The notes beneath the pieces were generated by a model. It was not told the DNA's origin. It worked only from the letters and a program-made list of their open reading frames with translations, and made no database searches. From positions 2,046,001 to 2,110,000 of the forward strand of contig NC_019792.1 of the NCBI RefSeq assembly GCF_000230715.2: a stretch of 64,000 bases of DNA, given 5' to 3'. This DNA comes from Natronobacterium gregoryi SP2 (GTDB lineage: Archaea; Halobacteriota; Halobacteria; Halobacteriales; Natrialbaceae). Both the position numbers and the translations under genes were made by a program. Shown here piece by piece: positions 4,447-63,417 of the stretch (positions are counted from its first letter, which is position 1; every line of letters begins with the position of its first letter).

Positions 4447-5331
4447 TCAGAGAACAGTTCGAACGATGTCTTTCAGGGCTTTTCGACCGGGTTTGCGTAG
4501 GATTTTCCGACGAAATTCGAAGAGTCTGAGATACGTGGTGAGTTTGTCCTTCGAGATACCTCGATGCGGCGAGAGCCACCGTCGCGCCAGCGACGCGTGG
4601 CTCTCGCACGTATTCACGTGTACATCTCCATCAACGTACTCTCCCTCGCCGTGAATAACCGCTTCTCGCTGGTACGTTTCGTCCGTCTCTAACGGGTCGT
4701 AGGCACGAAAGCCGTCGGTATAGACTGTCAGCGACTCCTCCTCGTGGGAATCGAGGAGGAGTCGCACAGCCGATTCGTCGGCGGATTTCGACGGGATGAC
4801 GTATCGCTGATCGCTACCGCGATCAACGAGGACAAACACAGGTGGCTTGTCTTCGTCGTAGTTTCCTCTGCCACGTTTCGAGAGACCACGCGAGCGCGAC
4901 TCCTGGTCGCGCTCGCGGCCTTTCTTTCCGGCAGAAACGTAGAACTCATCGATCTCGACGGGGCCAACGAGATCGAGCTGAGGCGCGTCGAGCGTTCTGG
5001 CGAAACGCTCGACGCGCCGGTGAAGCGATCGGTAGGAGACGTCAATTTCAGCGTCTAACTGGCGGATACTCGTGTTGAATCGGAGCAACGAGTAGAACGC
5101 GAACAACAGCTTGTCAAGGCCGATCTTCGCGTGCGCGAAGATCGTGCCGGTCTTGTCGTTGAACGTGCGTCCACAATTTTTACAGCGATACCGCTGATAC
5201 TCTCGATAGCTGCCGTACTTGATCACCGATTCAGACTGGCAGCGCGGGCACTGGAGGCCCTCGCGCCAGCGAACCTGCTCCAGCAGGTTCGCGGCGCTCG
5301 CCTCTGAGCGAAACACTTCAACTGGGAACAT
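4447..5331 (-). CDS. IS1595-family transposase, copy 1
   Basis: The N-terminal zinc ribbon is CPRC...CKNC (residues 27-57), followed by a helical segment and a DDE-type catalytic core: VEIDEFYV (first Asp), TDGFRAYD (second Asp) and NTCESH...SPHRGISKDKL in the third catalytic region. The start at 5331 (MFPVEVF) matches the start of copy 2 (MIPLDVF); an upstream ATG at 5355 would lie inside the 5' hairpin and is less likely. No frameshift or stop is seen, so the protein is probably functional. The two copies share roughly two thirds of their residues. Confidence 0.92.
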   Translation of the reverse strand: MFPVEVFRSEASAANLLEQVRWREGLQCPRCQSESVIKYGSYREYQRYRCKNCGRTFNDKTGTIFAHAKIGLDKLLFAFYSLLRFNTSIRQLDAEIDVSYRSLHRRVERFARTLDAPQLDLVGPVEIDEFYVSAGKKGRERDQESRSRGLSKRGRGNYDEDKPPVFVLVDRGSDQRYVIPSKSADESAVRLLLDSHEEESLTVYTDGFRAYDPLETDETYQREAVIHGEGEYVDGDVHVNTCESHASLARRWLSPHRGISKDKLTTYLRLFEFRRKILRKPGRKALKDIVRTVL

Positions 5332-12260: not shown

Positions 12261-12428
12261 CCGTCTCTCCGTACCGAAACTGCCTCCTGACTGTCACACG
12301 CCGACGGCAAGCGAGAGGTCTGTCGTCGGACATCGACGGCATTGGTCGCGTGCCCGTACTTGAACCTGTGGGCCCGGGTCGGTCACAACGACGAAAACCC
12401 CGGCCGGCCTAGACACTCTCGAAAACGA

Positions 12429-13088
12429 ATGGGAACTGCATACGATGCCATCGTCTTCGACAACGACGGCGTGTTGACGACGCCGACGGATTACGACGTC
12501 CTGATCGACGCGGTTCACGATGCCTTCGTGAGCGTCGGCGTCCCGGAACCGCCAACCGACCACGTCGAGACACTCATCAGCCCCGACGTCCCGACGCTTC
12601 GGCGGGTCGCAAACGAGCACGGTCTCGAGCCCAACGAGCTATGGAACGCTCGCGAACGCGCGGCGATCGACGCTCAACTCGAGGAGATGCGCGCCGGCCG
12701 GAAGCGACCGTACGACGACGTCGCGGCCCTCGTAGCGCTCGAGACGCCGACGGCGATCGTCAGCAACAACCAGCACCGAACGATCGAGAACGTCCTCGAA
12801 GAGTTCGAGTTGACCGAATACGGGTTCGATATCTGGTACGGTCGCGAGCCGACGGTCCGTGGTATCGAGCGCAAGAAGCCGACGCCGTACTACCTCGAGT
12901 CGGCGATCGAGGAACTGGGTGCGTCGAATCCGCTGTACGTCGGCGACAGCCAGGTCGACGTGCTGGCGGCCGACAACGCCGGAGTCGACTCGGCGTTTAT
13001 TCGTCGTGACCATCGCCTCGATTACGAGTTGTCGGTCGAACCGGAGTACGAAATCGAGTCGCTCTCGGTGCTGCCAAACCTCGTCTAG
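12429..13088 (+). CDS. HAD-superfamily phosphatase
   Basis: 219 residues. HAD motif I DNDGVLT with nucleophile and acid Asp, motif II serine in IVSNNQ, motif III lysine in ERKKPTP, and motif IV GDSQVDVLAADNAG. The cap is of the phosphoglycolate phosphatase (C1) type. Substrate is unknown. I chose the ATG at 12429 because motif I then lies at residues 10-16. The TAG stop is part of the CTAG that borders palindromic module A, so the repeat begins within the stop codon. Confidence 0.87.
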   Translation: MGTAYDAIVFDNDGVLTTPTDYDVLIDAVHDAFVSVGVPEPPTDHVETLISPDVPTLRRVANEHGLEPNELWNARERAAIDAQLEEMRAGRKRPYDDVAALVALETPTAIVSNNQHRTIENVLEEFELTEYGFDIWYGREPTVRGIERKKPTPYYLESAIEELGASNPLYVGDSQVDVLAADNAGVDSAFIRRDHRLDYELSVEPEYEIESLSVLPNLV

Positions 13089-13256
13089 TGGCGGGCCACG
13101 CCTGAACTGATGGGTCGAATCTGGCGGTGTGGCTCGATTCGACCCGTCAGTCGACGGTTGGGACGGTACTAGTGCTTTGGCAAGCCTGAACGGATGAGTG
13201 AAACCGAATGCGGTCGTCTGGGTTCACTCAGCAGTCGACGCTTGGCGGAGTACTAG
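13085..13256. repeat. CTAG-bounded palindromic module pair, A+ B+
   Basis: Module A (13089-13168) and module B (13173-13252) are each exactly 80 bp and each is bordered by CTAG (13085-13088, 13169-13172, 13253-13256). A and B are diverged relatives that share layout and several blocks (GCCTGAAC, CAGTCGACG). A folds through GGGTCGAAT/ATTCGACCC; B folds through GAGTGAAACC and a near-complement. The first CTAG contains the TAG stop of the HAD gene. Copies at 32166-32337 and 63246-63417 are about 97-99 percent identical but oriented differently. Confidence 0.9.
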
Positions 13257-31989: not shown

Positions 31990-32169
31990 AACTGTCGACT
32001 GGCAGGTCGATACGGCCCAGACGAGCGGTTCGACCCATACTGCCGGACAAAACGACGTGACGTTCGGTCGCTCTGCTGGGGCCACACCGGTGGCGACGGC
32101 CGCGAATCCGCGACCGACTTCGTATTGACTTCTGTCAGTACCAGCAGTGCAGGCTTGGGCCGCCACTAG
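31990..32169. repeat. Degenerate A module interrupted by unrelated sequence
   Basis: Left part (GGTCCAACTGTCGACTGGCAGG ... GTTCGACCCAT, 31992-32045) and right part (TGCAGGCTTGGGCCGCCACTAG, 32147-32169) match the two arms of module A, but about 100 bp of unrelated sequence separates them. It abuts the intact A module through the shared CTAG at 32166. It is an older copy broken by an insertion. Confidence 0.6.
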
Positions 32170-32337
32170 TACCGTCCCAACCGTCGACTGACGGGTCGAA
32201 TCGAGCCACACCGCCAGATTCGACCCATCAGTTCAGGCTTGGCCCGCCACTAGTACTCCGCCAAGCGTCGACTGCTGAGTGAAACCAGACGACTGCATTC
32301 GGTTTCACTCATCCGTTCAGGCTTGCCAAAGCACTAG
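32166..32337. repeat. CTAG-bounded palindromic module pair, A- B-
   Basis: A (32170-32249) and B (32254-32333), each 80 bp, bordered by CTAG at 32166-32169, 32250-32253 and 32334-32337. Both are inverted relative to the copy at 13085, yet A is still on the left. The B stem here is perfect (GAGTGAAACC/GGTTTCACTC). The last CTAG contains, on the minus strand, the TAG stop of the binding-protein gene. Confidence 0.9.
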
Positions 32338-33695
32338 ATCTCCCGGAGCCACGGCGGTACCACGTACTCACTCGTCGCCAGTTCCTCTGGCCAGATAACC
32401 TCCTGGACGCCCTCACCGTCGTCGGTCTCCTGCCACTGGAAAAACGGGAACTGGTCCGATCCGTAGACGAGGTCGTGAGCGAACTCCTCGTCGGCTCCGG
32501 TGAACTCGAGCGTTCCGATAGTGCCGGTAAACGCGATCGACTCGAGTTCGCCGACCAGGTCGTCGGCATCGAACGAGTCCGCTCGTTCGACGGCGTTGGC
32601 GTACAGCGTCACCGCGTCGTAGGTGTGGTAGCCGGTGTAGACGGGGTTCGAGCCGTGTCGCTTCTGGTACTCGTCGACGAACGGCTGGGTCTTCTCTGTG
32701 TTCTGGCTCTGGGCGGTCGCGCTGGTGTGGCCGATCCCGTACCGACAGGCACCGTTCGTCTGCTCGTAGTACGACGGTAACTGCATCGGGACGTGGATAC
32801 CGCCGAAGTCGAACGATCGTGGTTCGGGCGTCGTCCAGTCGAGCAACGCGTCGGTCCCGGTGTGGGCGGTGGTGATGAGCGCGAGGTCGGCCCCGGACCC
32901 GTCGACCAGATCGTAGAGCTCTGTGAAGTCGTCGGTCGCGGGCGGATAACGCTGCTCCACCACGACCTCGAGCCCGGTGTCTTGGAGCTGTTTCTGGTAG
33001 ATCTCCCACGGTCCCTGGGTCCAGTCGTACCCTTCGGCGAGGACGGCGACCGACTCCCAGCCGATCTCCGTCCCCATGTCGTCGAGGAAGTCGACGACCC
33101 CGTGACCGAGGTCGCGATCGTTGGTCGGGCCGACGCGGAAGTGGTACTTGTACTCCTCGTACTCCTGGCTCACCATGCGACTCGCCGCCGAGGTCGCCGC
33201 GCCGGTCGTGAGATGGAGCGTCTCCTGTTGTGCCACGTCGTCCATGACGTTCAGTAACGCGGGGCTGTCGAAGATGCCGACCGTTACGTCTGCGCCGTCC
33301 TCGAGAACCAGTTGCTGGTACTGGCGTCGTGCCTCGAGTGGACTGGCGTTCGTGTCGCGCACTGTCAGTTCGACCGGGAGACCGCCGATCCCACCGTTCT
33401 CGTTGAGTTCGTCGACCGCGATTTCCGCGGATCGAGCCATCGATCGTCCGACGAAGTCGCTCTCGGGATTCGGCGCGAGCAACCCCACGGTCACTGTCTC
33501 GGTCTCGTCGGTCGTGCCGACGACTGTTTCGTACACTTCCGCGCCGACGTCTCCCTGCAGGTCGAGACAGCCCGCACTCGAGACGGCGATCGTGCCGACC
33601 GCCGCCGTCTCGAGAAACCGTCGCCGGTTCGGGCCACCACCGCTCTCGCCGTCGACAGCGTCTCGCCGCCCGCGGCCCCGGGTAGATTCGGCCAT
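32334..33695 (-). CDS. Substrate-binding lipoprotein, branched-chain amino acid (LivK) type
   Basis: 453 residues. A Tat motif RRRFLET and a lipobox SAGC (residues 24-45) target it to the outer face of the membrane. The body is a periplasmic binding protein type I fold (VTVGLLAPNPESDFVGRSM, AEIAVDELNENGGIGGLPVEL, YTGYHTYDAVTLYANAVERA). No permease or ATPase is nearby. It is divergent from a transducer gene, the arrangement of BasB/BasT in Halobacterium, so a sensory rather than transport role is likely. The stop TAG lies in the CTAG of module B. Confidence 0.88.
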   Translation of the reverse strand: MAESTRGRGRRDAVDGESGGGPNRRRFLETAAVGTIAVSSAGCLDLQGDVGAEVYETVVGTTDETETVTVGLLAPNPESDFVGRSMARSAEIAVDELNENGGIGGLPVELTVRDTNASPLEARRQYQQLVLEDGADVTVGIFDSPALLNVMDDVAQQETLHLTTGAATSAASRMVSQEYEEYKYHFRVGPTNDRDLGHGVVDFLDDMGTEIGWESVAVLAEGYDWTQGPWEIYQKQLQDTGLEVVVEQRYPPATDDFTELYDLVDGSGADLALITTAHTGTDALLDWTTPEPRSFDFGGIHVPMQLPSYYEQTNGACRYGIGHTSATAQSQNTEKTQPFVDEYQKRHGSNPVYTGYHTYDAVTLYANAVERADSFDADDLVGELESIAFTGTIGTLEFTGADEEFAHDLVYGSDQFPFFQWQETDDGEGVQEVIWPEELATSEYVVPPWLREI

Positions 33696-33911
33696 AGTGA
33701 TAGTTATTCCGACCATTATTTATTAATAGTTTCGGATAAAAGAGCGATAATTACTACTGTGGGCTGGTGAGACGATCCCACATCTCTCGAGCGACCGATG
33801 TGGCTGTTCTAACAGCGATGACGCGTTACAAGTCCCGCTGTCGGTTTGTTATCGATGCTGATAATCACGGATTACAATTTATGTGGTGAGGACTGTGCAG
33901 GTTGGATAGCC

Positions 33912-46465: not shown

Positions 46466-46578
46466 ACTCGTCGGAGTGCGTTACGGCGATAGTGGGTTCC
46501 GACCGTCGAACTGAGTCGCGTCCGTCCATACGACGCAACCGCAAGAGAAAACGGGGGCGGGCCGGGACAGCGTTCGTC

Positions 46579-46663
46579 TCATACGGATTGCTGTAACTAG
46601 TTACCGCCGATCGCCAGAACGGGGTCGGCGATCGGCGGTAAGTGAATACAGCAAACCGTATCA
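46579..46663. repeat. TACGG palindrome, copy 7, on the stop of the methionine synthase gene
   Basis: A 79-bp element (46582-46660): ends TACGGATTGCTGTAA and its near-complement, with a distinct inner stem TTACCGCCGATCGCC/GGCGATCGGCGGTAA. TCA flanks both sides (46579-46581, 46661-46663). The right TCA is the TGA stop of the methionine synthase gene. The inner stem differs in sequence from the other copies but is still fully paired. Confidence 0.9.
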
Positions 46664-47731
46664 GTCGTCGGCCGGTGCCGGATTCCCGCGTTCGACGTCG
46701 ACGTCGCCCTCGTCCAGTTTCTGCTCGACGTTGCGGGCCGCCTCGACCATGTTCGCCAGCTTGCCGTAGGCGACCTCGCGGGGCAGTAGCTTCACGCCAC
46801 AGTCCGGCGAGACCACGAGCTGTTCCGGCGGGACGACCTCGAGGCCCTTCAAAATGTTCTCCTCGATCTGTTCGACGGACTCGACCTCACCGACGTGGAC
46901 GTCCGTGACGCCCAGCGCGAGGTCGGCCGTGAACTCGGGATCTTTGAAAACCTCGAGTTGGTCGTAGTCGCCGTTTGCCAGTTCGAGGTCGAACTCGTCG
47001 ACGGGGAACTCGAGGAGCTCGGGGTAGATCCGGGAGTAATCGCCGTAACAGACGTGGAGACCGATGCGGACGTCGTCGGGAATGTCGGCGACGATGTGCT
47101 CGAGTGCCTCGCCGACGATGGCGTGGTCGTCGGGTGTCGTTGCGAGTGCGGGTTCGTCGATCTGGATGTAGCGTGCGCCGGCTTCGACGAGTTTTTCGAT
47201 CTCCTCGTTGACGAGGTCGGCGAGCTCGAGTGTGAGTTCGTCGTCGTCCTCGTAGGCCTCGTTGAACGACCAGTTTGCGAGCGTGTACGGGCCGGTGATC
47301 GGTACCTTGACCGGGCGGTCGGTCGCGCTCGCGGTAAACTCGTACTCGTCGACGAGCCAGCTCTCGTCGTATTCGACCTCGCTCACGACGGAGGGCTTGT
47401 CGAAGTAGTTGTGTCCCCACACCTTGACGGGGCCGTTGAACTCGTAGCCCTCGATGCGGTGGGCGAAGAACTCGACCATCTCGTTGCGCCGCATCTCGCC
47501 GTCGACGACGACGTCGAGGCCGGCGCGTTCGTGTTCGTTCGTGATGAGGCGGGCGGCGTCGTCTTTGGCCTCCTGCCAGTCGTCGTCGTCGAACCCGTGA
47601 TCGGGGTCCTGGTAGAGTTCTTTCGCACGATTGAGCCACTTGGGTTTGGGGTAGCTGCCGACGACGGTCGTCAGCAGGAAGTGGTCGTTCTCGTGACCGT
47701 CCGGTCGGAACTGGTCTTTGTTTCGGCTCAT
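46661..47731 (-). CDS. Cobalamin-independent methionine synthase, zinc/catalytic (MetE C-terminal-like) protein
   Basis: 356 residues corresponding to the catalytic half of MetE. Zinc ligands are visible in GLHVCYGDY (His and Cys) and SPDCGVKLLPR (Cys), with IQIDEPALATT as the substrate-binding strand and TTVVGSYPKPKW at the start. It transfers a methyl group to homocysteine; archaeal short MetE proteins may use a methylcorrinoid or methyltetrahydrofolate-type donor. The ATG overlaps the TGA of the preceding gene (ATGA, 47728-47731), so translation is coupled. Confidence 0.9.
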   Translation of the reverse strand: MSRNKDQFRPDGHENDHFLLTTVVGSYPKPKWLNRAKELYQDPDHGFDDDDWQEAKDDAARLITNEHERAGLDVVVDGEMRRNEMVEFFAHRIEGYEFNGPVKVWGHNYFDKPSVVSEVEYDESWLVDEYEFTASATDRPVKVPITGPYTLANWSFNEAYEDDDELTLELADLVNEEIEKLVEAGARYIQIDEPALATTPDDHAIVGEALEHIVADIPDDVRIGLHVCYGDYSRIYPELLEFPVDEFDLELANGDYDQLEVFKDPEFTADLALGVTDVHVGEVESVEQIEENILKGLEVVPPEQLVVSPDCGVKLLPREVAYGKLANMVEAARNVEQKLDEGDVDVERGNPAPADD

Positions 47732-58959: not shown

Positions 58960-59844
58960 ATGATCCCGCTAGATGTGTTTGGGTCGGAATCGGTCGCAGC
59001 GGACCTGTTAGAGCAGGTTCGCTGGCGTAACGGTGTTACTTGCCCTCGCTGCCGTTCTGACCTGACGGTCAAGAACGGCAGCTATGGGCACTTTCAGCGC
59101 TATCTCTGTAAGAATTGCGACCGCACGTTCAACGACAAGACCGGCACAATCTTCGCCCATTCGAAAGTCGCACTCAGAAAGTGGCTGTTCTCGATTTACG
59201 CGTTTCTCCGGTTTAACACGAGTCTTCGTCAACTTCAGATAGAGATCGACGTCCAGTACAAAACGATATATCAGCGCGTCGAGCGCTTCACGAAGGCGCT
59301 TGATGCACCTTCGCTTGACCTTGTCGGACCGGTCGAAATCGATGAAGTCTACGTTTCTGCAGGGCTGAAAGGCCGCGAGCGCGACCAAGAGTCGCGCTCG
59401 CGTGGCCTGTCCACGCGTGGGCGAGGAACGTACGAGAAGGACAAACCGCCGGTGTTCACGATCGTCGATCGTGGCACCGGCGACCGATACGTGATCCCAG
59501 CGAAATCAGCCGACGAATCGACGATTCGGCTCCTTCTCGAAAACCGTCAGAAGGAGCCACTGACCGTCTACACTGACGGATTTCGTGCCTACGATCCACT
59601 GGCCGAGGACGACGCATTCGACCGCGAATACGTCGTCCACGGCGACGGCGAATACGCCAACGAAAACGTACACGTCAACACCTGCGAGAGCCACGGATCG
59701 CTGCTGCGACCGTGGCTCTCGCCTCATCGAGGCATCTCAAAAGACAAGCTCACACAGTATCTCCGAGCGTTCCAACTTCGACGAAAGCTACTGTGGAAAC
59801 CAGGGAGAGAAGCGCTCAAACACGCTATCAAAGCGACGCTATGA
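58960..59844 (+). CDS. IS1595-family transposase, copy 2
   Basis: 294 residues, uninterrupted. Zinc ribbon CPRC...CKNC, catalytic VEIDEVYV, TDGFRAYD and the HVNTCESHGSLLRPWLSPHRG region. It differs at roughly one third of positions from copy 1, so the two entered the genome independently or long ago. The stop lies 2 nt before the right inverted repeat. Confidence 0.93.
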   Translation: MIPLDVFGSESVAADLLEQVRWRNGVTCPRCRSDLTVKNGSYGHFQRYLCKNCDRTFNDKTGTIFAHSKVALRKWLFSIYAFLRFNTSLRQLQIEIDVQYKTIYQRVERFTKALDAPSLDLVGPVEIDEVYVSAGLKGRERDQESRSRGLSTRGRGTYEKDKPPVFTIVDRGTGDRYVIPAKSADESTIRLLLENRQKEPLTVYTDGFRAYDPLAEDDAFDREYVVHGDGEYANENVHVNTCESHGSLLRPWLSPHRGISKDKLTQYLRAFQLRRKLLWKPGREALKHAIKATL

Positions 59845-59921: not shown

Positions 59922-61073
59922 ATGAGTGACAGAAGTTTTGGGCGTGGGCTAAGACGAACGGGGTAATGGGAGGAGACCGGCGGGGCGAGCTCGTTCGTCA
60001 TCTGAGCGAGGAGGAGTTGGATCGTCTGCTGGACGAAGCAGACGATCCAAAGGTCGTCAAGCGGCTCACCTTTGTCAAACGTCTCTACAAGGGTGCAACG
60101 TACGAAGAAGCAGCCGACGACGTTGGGAAATCTGCGTCGACTGGAAGTCGCTGGGCACGTCGATGGAACGATGGCGGGCTGGGTCAGTTGACACCGAACT
60201 TCGGGGGCGGAAGGCCCCCGAAGCTCGGTGACGAGGAACAAGAGTGTCTTCTAGAACTTCTCCGGGAGGGACAGCCCTGGAAAGCACAGGAAGTTCACCA
60301 GCTCTTGGACGAAGAGTTCGATGTTGAGTACCATCCGGATTATCTCGGTCGAGTCCTCCGGAATCTCGGACTGTCTTACGCTAAACCACGTCCAAAACGT
60401 CCCTCACGGCCAGAAAATGCAGATGAAATCCTCGAAGAACGCGTCGCAGACGCGTTCGACGAGGAAACAGAGACAGCACATAACAACCGTCCCGAGGATG
60501 AGGACGAAGGCTGGGTTCTCGACGACAATATCTGTACAGATGGAGGAACTGTCGTCGGTTTTTGTGACGCTTCTCATCCGCAACCATACGACAATTCGCA
60601 TCGACTGTGGTACGTCGATGATCCGACACTCGAACGACCGCTGGTGAAGCTTGACGAACCAGCGGTCGGGTGCTATACGCTCAACGGCGAAAGTGTCCTG
60701 ACCTTTCCTGAAGATCAATCGAAAGAGAACATCTGTGCCCTATTGGAGGAGGTCCGCGAGCAGAATCCGGGAACGCGGATTCTGCTCGTCTTGGACAACT
60801 TCTCGTCTCACATCTGTGAGCACACGCGCAAGCGCGCACATCAACTCGGTATCGATCTCGTCTTTCTTCCGGTCGGTTCACCGCATCTCAATCCAATCGA
60901 GCAGGTCTGGAAAGTGCTCAAACGGAATGCTTCACCAATCGTCGTGGCGAGCGAGAGCGCGTTCCGCACTCTCGCTCGCCGCCTCTTCAACACCCTCACC
61001 GATCGACTTGGATTCGCCAAGTCTTGGATCGACCAGTTCCTCAGTCCATATTTGCAAAAGTTATCTTGATCAT
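59922..61073 (+). mobile_element. IS630-family insertion sequence
   Basis: 1152 bp flanked by TA (59920-59921 and 61074-61075), the TA duplication of IS630/Tc1-mariner elements. The inverted ends ATGAGTGACAGAAGTTTTG and ATGATCAAGATAACTTTTG match at 13 of 19 positions. It inserted into the IS4-like transposase gene on its right. Confidence 0.85.
59966..61069 (+). CDS. IS630-family transposase
   Basis: 367 residues. N-terminal helix-turn-helix (KGATYEEAADDVGKSASTGSRWARRW), GRPPKL linker, and a DDE core: GFCDAS, LVLDNFSSH and LPVGSPHLNPIEQVWKVLKR. No frameshift is seen, so it is probably active. It ends directly inside the right inverted end (stop at 61069). Confidence 0.92.
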   Translation: MGGDRRGELVRHLSEEELDRLLDEADDPKVVKRLTFVKRLYKGATYEEAADDVGKSASTGSRWARRWNDGGLGQLTPNFGGGRPPKLGDEEQECLLELLREGQPWKAQEVHQLLDEEFDVEYHPDYLGRVLRNLGLSYAKPRPKRPSRPENADEILEERVADAFDEETETAHNNRPEDEDEGWVLDDNICTDGGTVVGFCDASHPQPYDNSHRLWYVDDPTLERPLVKLDEPAVGCYTLNGESVLTFPEDQSKENICALLEEVREQNPGTRILLVLDNFSSHICEHTRKRAHQLGIDLVFLPVGSPHLNPIEQVWKVLKRNASPIVVASESAFRTLARRLFNTLTDRLGFAKSWIDQFLSPYLQKLS

Positions 61074-63245: not shown

Positions 63246-63417
63246 CTAGTACCGTCCCAACCGTCGACTGACGGGTCGAATCGAGCGACACCGCCAGATT
63301 CGACCCATCAGTGCAGGCTTGGCCCGCCACTAGTGCTTTGGCAAGCCTGAACGGATGAGTGAAACCGAATGCGGTCGTCTGGGTTCACGCAGCAGTCGAC
63401 GCTTGGCGGAGTACTAG
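63246..63417. repeat. CTAG-bounded palindromic module pair, A- B+
   Basis: A (63250-63329) is inverted and B (63334-63413) is direct, each 80 bp, with CTAG at 63246-63249, 63330-63333 and 63414-63417. Compared with copies at 13085 (A+ B+) and 32166 (A- B-), this is a third relative orientation of the same two modules. It does not touch a stop codon; the nearest gene ends 69 bp to the left. Confidence 0.9.

Follow-up and report, generated by a model that had tools for sequence, protein, structure and literature searches.

Three pairs of short repeats in the window analysed here (64,000 nucleotides, positions 2046001-2110000 of the one-contig, 3,788,356-bp genome of Natronobacterium gregoryi SP2) raise the question of what kind of element is bordered by CTAG on both sides and begins inside the stop codon of a gene. 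CTAG occurs at 13085, 13169 and 13253, and again at 32166, 32250 and 32334, which agrees with the original prediction of 80-bp modules flanked by CTAG and recurring every 84 bp. It had placed the TAG stop of a HAD-family gene in the first CTAG of one pair and that of a binding-protein gene in the last CTAG of the other, and both open reading frames end there (Table 1). The equal phase of the two stops holds as well, but automatically, because an in-frame TAG lying inside CTAG puts C in the third codon position at both. The third pair (63246-63417) lies away from any stop. Module identity among the three pairs is around 91-98%, and the orientation of a module does not depend on that of its neighbour, pair 2 being A-B- and pair 3 A-B+. 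BLAST found the modules at about 72 places in the genome, with E-values down to 1e-85, and CTAG is scarce in the window (45 observed, 97 expected). Given the matches across pairs and genome and the depletion of CTAG, the repeat pattern is not due to chance. The window also holds an inverted pair of 864-nt stretches (4468-5331 and 58960-59823) of 73% identity, probably paralogous genes.

Table 1. Features of the three window pairs, and insertions in C-TGA-G. L and G numbers, here and in the text, are our handles for loci and genomes; positions after an L number refer to that locus.
Feature	Position	Strand	Remarks
HAD-family hydrolase gene, TAG stop is a target site	12342..13088	+	Pfam HAD_2/Hydrolase; start codon uncertain
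Module A, first pair, including both flanking CTAGs	13085..13172	+	Shares a CTAG with module B
Module A, first pair, element proper	13088-13169	+	82 bp, G...C
Probably duplicated TA around module A of the HAD site	13086-13087 and 13170-13171		
Module B, first pair	13169..13256	+	CTAG 13169-13172 common to modules A and B
Module A, second pair, inverted	32166..32253	-	
Module B, second pair, inverted	32250..32337	-	Last CTAG contains the binding-protein TAG stop
Periplasmic-type binding-protein gene, TAG stop is a target site	32334..33716	-	Pfam Peripla_BP_6
Module A, third pair, inverted	63246..63333	-	Intergenic
Module B, third pair	63330..63417	+	Intergenic
Insertions in C-TGA-G	L066 1489-1576; L223 1501-1588; L240 1258-1345		
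Further insertions in C-TGA-G	L288 880-967 and 2613-2700; L262		L066, L223, L240, L288 and L262 together comprise modules and one parent copy, with TGA duplicated

We mapped 169 modules in 80 loci of the genome. They fall into three non-coding types: A and B have a period of 84 bp, and C one of 106 bp with two inner CTAGs, which correspond to elements of 82 and 104 bp. The pair had been regarded as a unit, a view that the genome-wide map does not bear out, since solitary insertions of A, of B and of C all occur. Modules occur alone or in chains of nearly any order and orientation, with one CTAG common to each junction, and the 87 arrays show 46 different arrangements. Like modules are seldom adjacent (5 of 87 adjacencies, around 31 being expected from their frequencies), a rarity that the instability of direct or inverted repeats would explain. 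The mean pairwise identity of copies is 95-96% for A and B and 92% for C, values raised in part by the restriction of the comparison to matches above 90%. Searches of Rfam and of phages with the modules gave no match, and one exact pattern found none in viral contigs. Single modules are present in four plasmid records, among them one at plasmid position 76415-76502 of G001. Modules also lie in or beside the AACTAGTT-like centre of a palindromic repeat, 'TACGG' (L076, L086, L016, L019, L097 and L102), which itself occurs near 46575-46667 of the window; the 'TACGG' family is a target of the CTAG module family.

We consider the modules to be miniature inverted-repeat transposable elements (MITEs) of the IS630/Tc1-mariner kind, with a probability of roughly 0.88. 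They are short and non-coding, exist in many near-identical copies, have the ends of an IS630 element around an unrelated interior, and their sites are found empty in relatives. The ends were traced by searching Pfam DDE_3 in 16 module-bearing relatives and scanning for module arms, which revealed one IS630 lineage with such arms at both ends. This parent, an element of 1217-1218 bp, has two ORFs (160 and 235 aa), whose proteins match NCBIfam transpos_IS630 (NF033545, 150 bits), DDE_3 and HTH_32. Its ends, CTAGTAGCTTCCCAAGCGTCGAGTGACTAG and CTAGTACCGTCCCAACCGTGGACAGCTAG, match the module arms, and a second CTAG lies 26 bp inside its end, exactly as in module C. The element is present in G018, G020, G043, G044 and G064, and by protein search, the element or a close relation of it turned up in 19 of 119 genomes, with CTAG flanking most intact copies at either end. 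None of the other IS630 lineages of the same genomes showed such ends. Modules are commoner where the parent occurs (14/19 genomes vs 20/100, p=1e-5, a value not corrected for phylogeny). In A and B, the right arm resembles the parent ends more closely than the left arm does, and the CCTGAACTG half was found only in a second parent lineage (L271).

Within the genome of the window, the parent matched by its terminal 22-32 bp only, at all 11 places, and such end-only matching of a 1217-bp element is the hallmark of a MITE. No full-length parent occurs in this genome, though the A and B copies are so alike. The IS630 copies that the genome does carry were rejected as parents, their ends (ATGAGTGACAGAAG and GATACTGATGG) being different. 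One of them, intact in the window (59966-61069, DDE match at 60560-60934, ends ATGAGTGACAGAAG), has 8 near-identical copies in the genome (99.3-99.7%) and shows a TA duplication in the middle of its inverted-repeat arms. Another candidate, an IS1595/ISH4-like transposase gene inside a C module (L193, 262-2535), was discarded as a later insertion. That gene is itself split by the window's IS630 element, a nesting three insertions deep. Outside this genome, a fourth module type is represented by a 202-bp element (L070, 1325-1526) that combines the same 28-bp ends with an unrelated interior.

Beyond this genome, BLAST detected modules in 34 of 119 relatives. A covariance model applied to 322 genomes of the class found them in 48, of which 41 belong to the same family. 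Diverged copies almost always retain both borders and the length of 88 nt. Each module folds into an irregular hairpin, and 5 of the 6 window copies do so better than any of 200 shuffles. In the hairpin, position i pairs with 89-i, and the mismatches C.C (18/71) and G.G (20/69) hardly vary. Changes on both sides were seen at 12 hairpin pairs (79 cells, against 32 in shuffles and 4-10 in slid controls). A wobble bias (40 G.T vs 22 A.C) was set aside as a sign of an RNA strand because the signal is weak, arising from few columns and split 8 columns each way. Terminal repeats that are read by one transposase and change together could produce part of the covariation. The inner stem and the fixed mismatches are not accounted for in this way, and the fixed mismatches together with covariation along all 88 nt exceed what terminal recognition needs. 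One speculative reading, which we hold to be rather improbable, is that the A/B hairpin is maintained in folded form for a function of its own, given that the 88-nt register, the 12 covarying pairs and the mismatches (C.C, G.G and A.C) persist across genera; examples would be a structure at the 3' end of transcripts at stops, or a folded or cruciform end for the transposase.

The same folding brings to mind single-strand hairpins of the REP or PATE type, recognised in folded form by a Y1 (HUH) transposase of the IS200/IS605 or RAYT type and inserted beside CTAG with no target duplication. The hairpins that outdo shuffles, the mismatches fixed while stem pairs covary, and the tetranucleotide tags that REPs carry according to the literature would all suit such elements. 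However, the border bases on the outer side vary and TA or TGA is probably duplicated (below), an IS630-family element with matching ends exists, and module orientation has no strand bias along the chromosome, where a replication-linked bias was sought. The only Y1 genes of the genome are broken, and no module ends common to an IS200/IS605 or RAYT locus with an intact enzyme were found in it; the sole module end near the broken genes is a C-type arm. We therefore regard a Y1 origin as very unlikely. One of these Y1 (TnpA) genes, beside a TnpB gene, appears to be interrupted by a 4-kb insertion that leaves its two parts about 4 kb from each other (G000:C1:3034588-3039063; L071, L073).

The original prediction took CTAG for a 4-bp target duplication. 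The ends could be scored in 189 distinct module copies, of which 144 are flanked by CTAG left and right, a pattern that fits a duplication of 2 or 4 bp alike; some loci were fetched by a pattern demanding CTAG at one end, so that counts of end types are biased towards it. More informative are 12 sites other than CTAG, from which the duplicated unit was read: TA lies beside a constant inner G and C while the outer base differs (one further non-CTAG site, L100, is ambiguous). At five sites, the module lies between two TGA in C-TGA-G, again with inner G and C constant, and a parent copy also has a TGA duplication. Two of the five coincide with the TGA stop of an ORF (433 and 280 aa). Since the inner G and C stay constant where TA or TGA flanks the module at non-CTAG sites, they probably belong to the element. 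Judging from these filled sites, the 4-bp duplication is probably only apparent, and it is TA, or TGA, that is duplicated. This is in line with IS630, which is described in a passage of PMC2170065 citing Tenzen and Ohtsubo (1991) as favouring TA in 5'-CTAG-3' and duplicating TA. A 3-bp duplication of TGA is unusual for an IS630-type element.

Elements of the IS5 type, with a true 4-bp CTAG duplication and outer-base differences due to later mutation, would also give CTAG on both sides of most copies, and the passages of PMC3189936 on MITEPsy1 of Pseudomonas describe duplication of CTAG or YTAA. Nevertheless, the parent protein is of IS630 and not IS5, the single-base deviations fall mostly at the outer base, and TGA duplications are incompatible with a 4-bp CTAG. 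The odds of this explanation seem to us slightly poorer still than those of a Y1 origin.

Comparison with relatives identifies the insertion site itself. We joined the flanks of occupied sites and sought them in genomes of the same genus. In G003, the HAD orthologue has CTCGTCTAGGCTTCG and ends in CTCGTCTAGGCTTCGACGG, where a single CTAG stands and the insert is missing; at L039, the stop is TTCTAG with no insert in G001, G002 and G003. Hence, the single CTAG expected at the stops of orthologues was found at both sites, and CTAG stands as the insertion site even if not as the duplicated unit. L009 carries one A module in G003 and B-A in this genome, and at L091 both genomes have an A-type module of differing sequence. 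At further stop sites, the stop of the relatives is other than CTAG; CTAG stops therefore come and go. Modules permuted and independently inverted might also be expected of a shufflon-like system recombining at CTAG, but single modules at scattered sites, absent from relatives, no fixed gene common to the chains, and a 4-bp crossover that to our knowledge is too short for known recombinases make this the least credible explanation.

With a simple codon-based gene caller, 28 of 60 target sites are stops, 30 are intergenic and 2 lie inside genes. For comparison, other CTAGs are at stops in 8 cases (8%), intergenic in 41 and inside genes in 50 (6/26/31 in flanks and 2/15/19 in the window). Stops are over-represented relative to intergenic sites (p=5e-4), and strict gene calls give 22 of 59 targets against 5 of 92 other CTAGs. 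The proposed stop-codon niche is thus borne out as an enrichment, whereas about half of the targets are not stops. That CTAG is rare in coding sequence and arises at stops, as had been suggested, is part of the reason. The inner G is probably the element's own, and would therefore complete the TAG: at the HAD gene, the stop (13086-13088) would consist of the target TA and the element's first G. Insertion after C-TA would be neutral because an element beginning with G rebuilds TAG. Selection removing insertions inside genes accounts for their shortage there; the excess of stops over intergenic CTAGs may again be selection, the rebuilt stop being silent.

For these IS630-type MITEs, the following mechanism may be proposed. 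A transposase acting in trans would bind the imperfect terminal repeats (around 25 bp, CTAGTACCGTCCCAASCGTCGACTG type), excise the modules and insert them at the TA of CTAG, or now and then at the TGA of CTGAG, with duplication of TA or TGA. The target would provide the outer C and G, and the element ends the inner G and C, so that each copy appears bordered by CTAG. Each insertion would make two CTAGs in a CTAG-poor genome and later copies would land in earlier borders; because copies create new targets, A, B and C would come to form chains with no set order or orientation. A gene ending in NNC-TAG would be left unaltered, the element supplying the G of TAG and the protein remaining unchanged. 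Insertions at stops would survive selection, and those inside genes would not. From the sequences, we infer that the parent's IS630 transposase was responsible for moving the copies of this genome, where the parent no longer exists.

Among known systems, IS630 of Shigella and ISY100 come closest in that their family models match the parent and IS630 shares the preference for, and duplication of, TA; the modules differ in being non-coding and only 82-104 bp long, and in that some copies duplicate TGA in C-TGA-G, of which we found no description for IS630 in the literature searched. RUP of Streptococcus pneumoniae, a 107-bp MITE of IS630-Spn1, likewise has terminal repeats common to an IS630 element, and both RUP and Correia/NEMIS elements are of about 100 bp, target TA, favour other mobile elements and form stable stem-loops (PMC2229807). 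Unlike these, the modules are CTAG-specific, archaeal and frequent at stops, and form end-to-end chains in which three types are mixed. MITEPsy1 of Pseudomonas syringae has 100 bp and inserts at CTAG or YTAA, but the passages of PMC3189936 that treat it ascribe it to the IS5-family ISPsy2 with a 4-bp duplication and report no chains. By description only, the SMRs of Haloquadratum walsbyi are similar in size (80-110 bp) and, with PATEs, in their prominent terminal repeats and nesting in other mobile elements and palindromes, whereas SMRs are said to be without target duplication and their mobiliser to be unknown (PMC3119063). BIMEs resemble the chains in being mosaics, arrays in which palindromic units alternate in orientation, but REPs are 20-40 bp long and linked to Y1 transposases. 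Hence, the kind of element, an IS630-type MITE, is already known, while we found no description of the haloarchaeal module family or its shuffled tandem chains in the literature searched, mostly without subscription papers.

These results replace the puzzle of a 4-bp target with a testable mechanism, and give a haloarchaeal repeat family a parent transposase. They also indicate how stop codons can serve as safe harbours for an element whose first base is the right one. Other orphan short repeats of haloarchaea, such as the SMRs, may be resolved in the same way, by seeking the parent in relatives.
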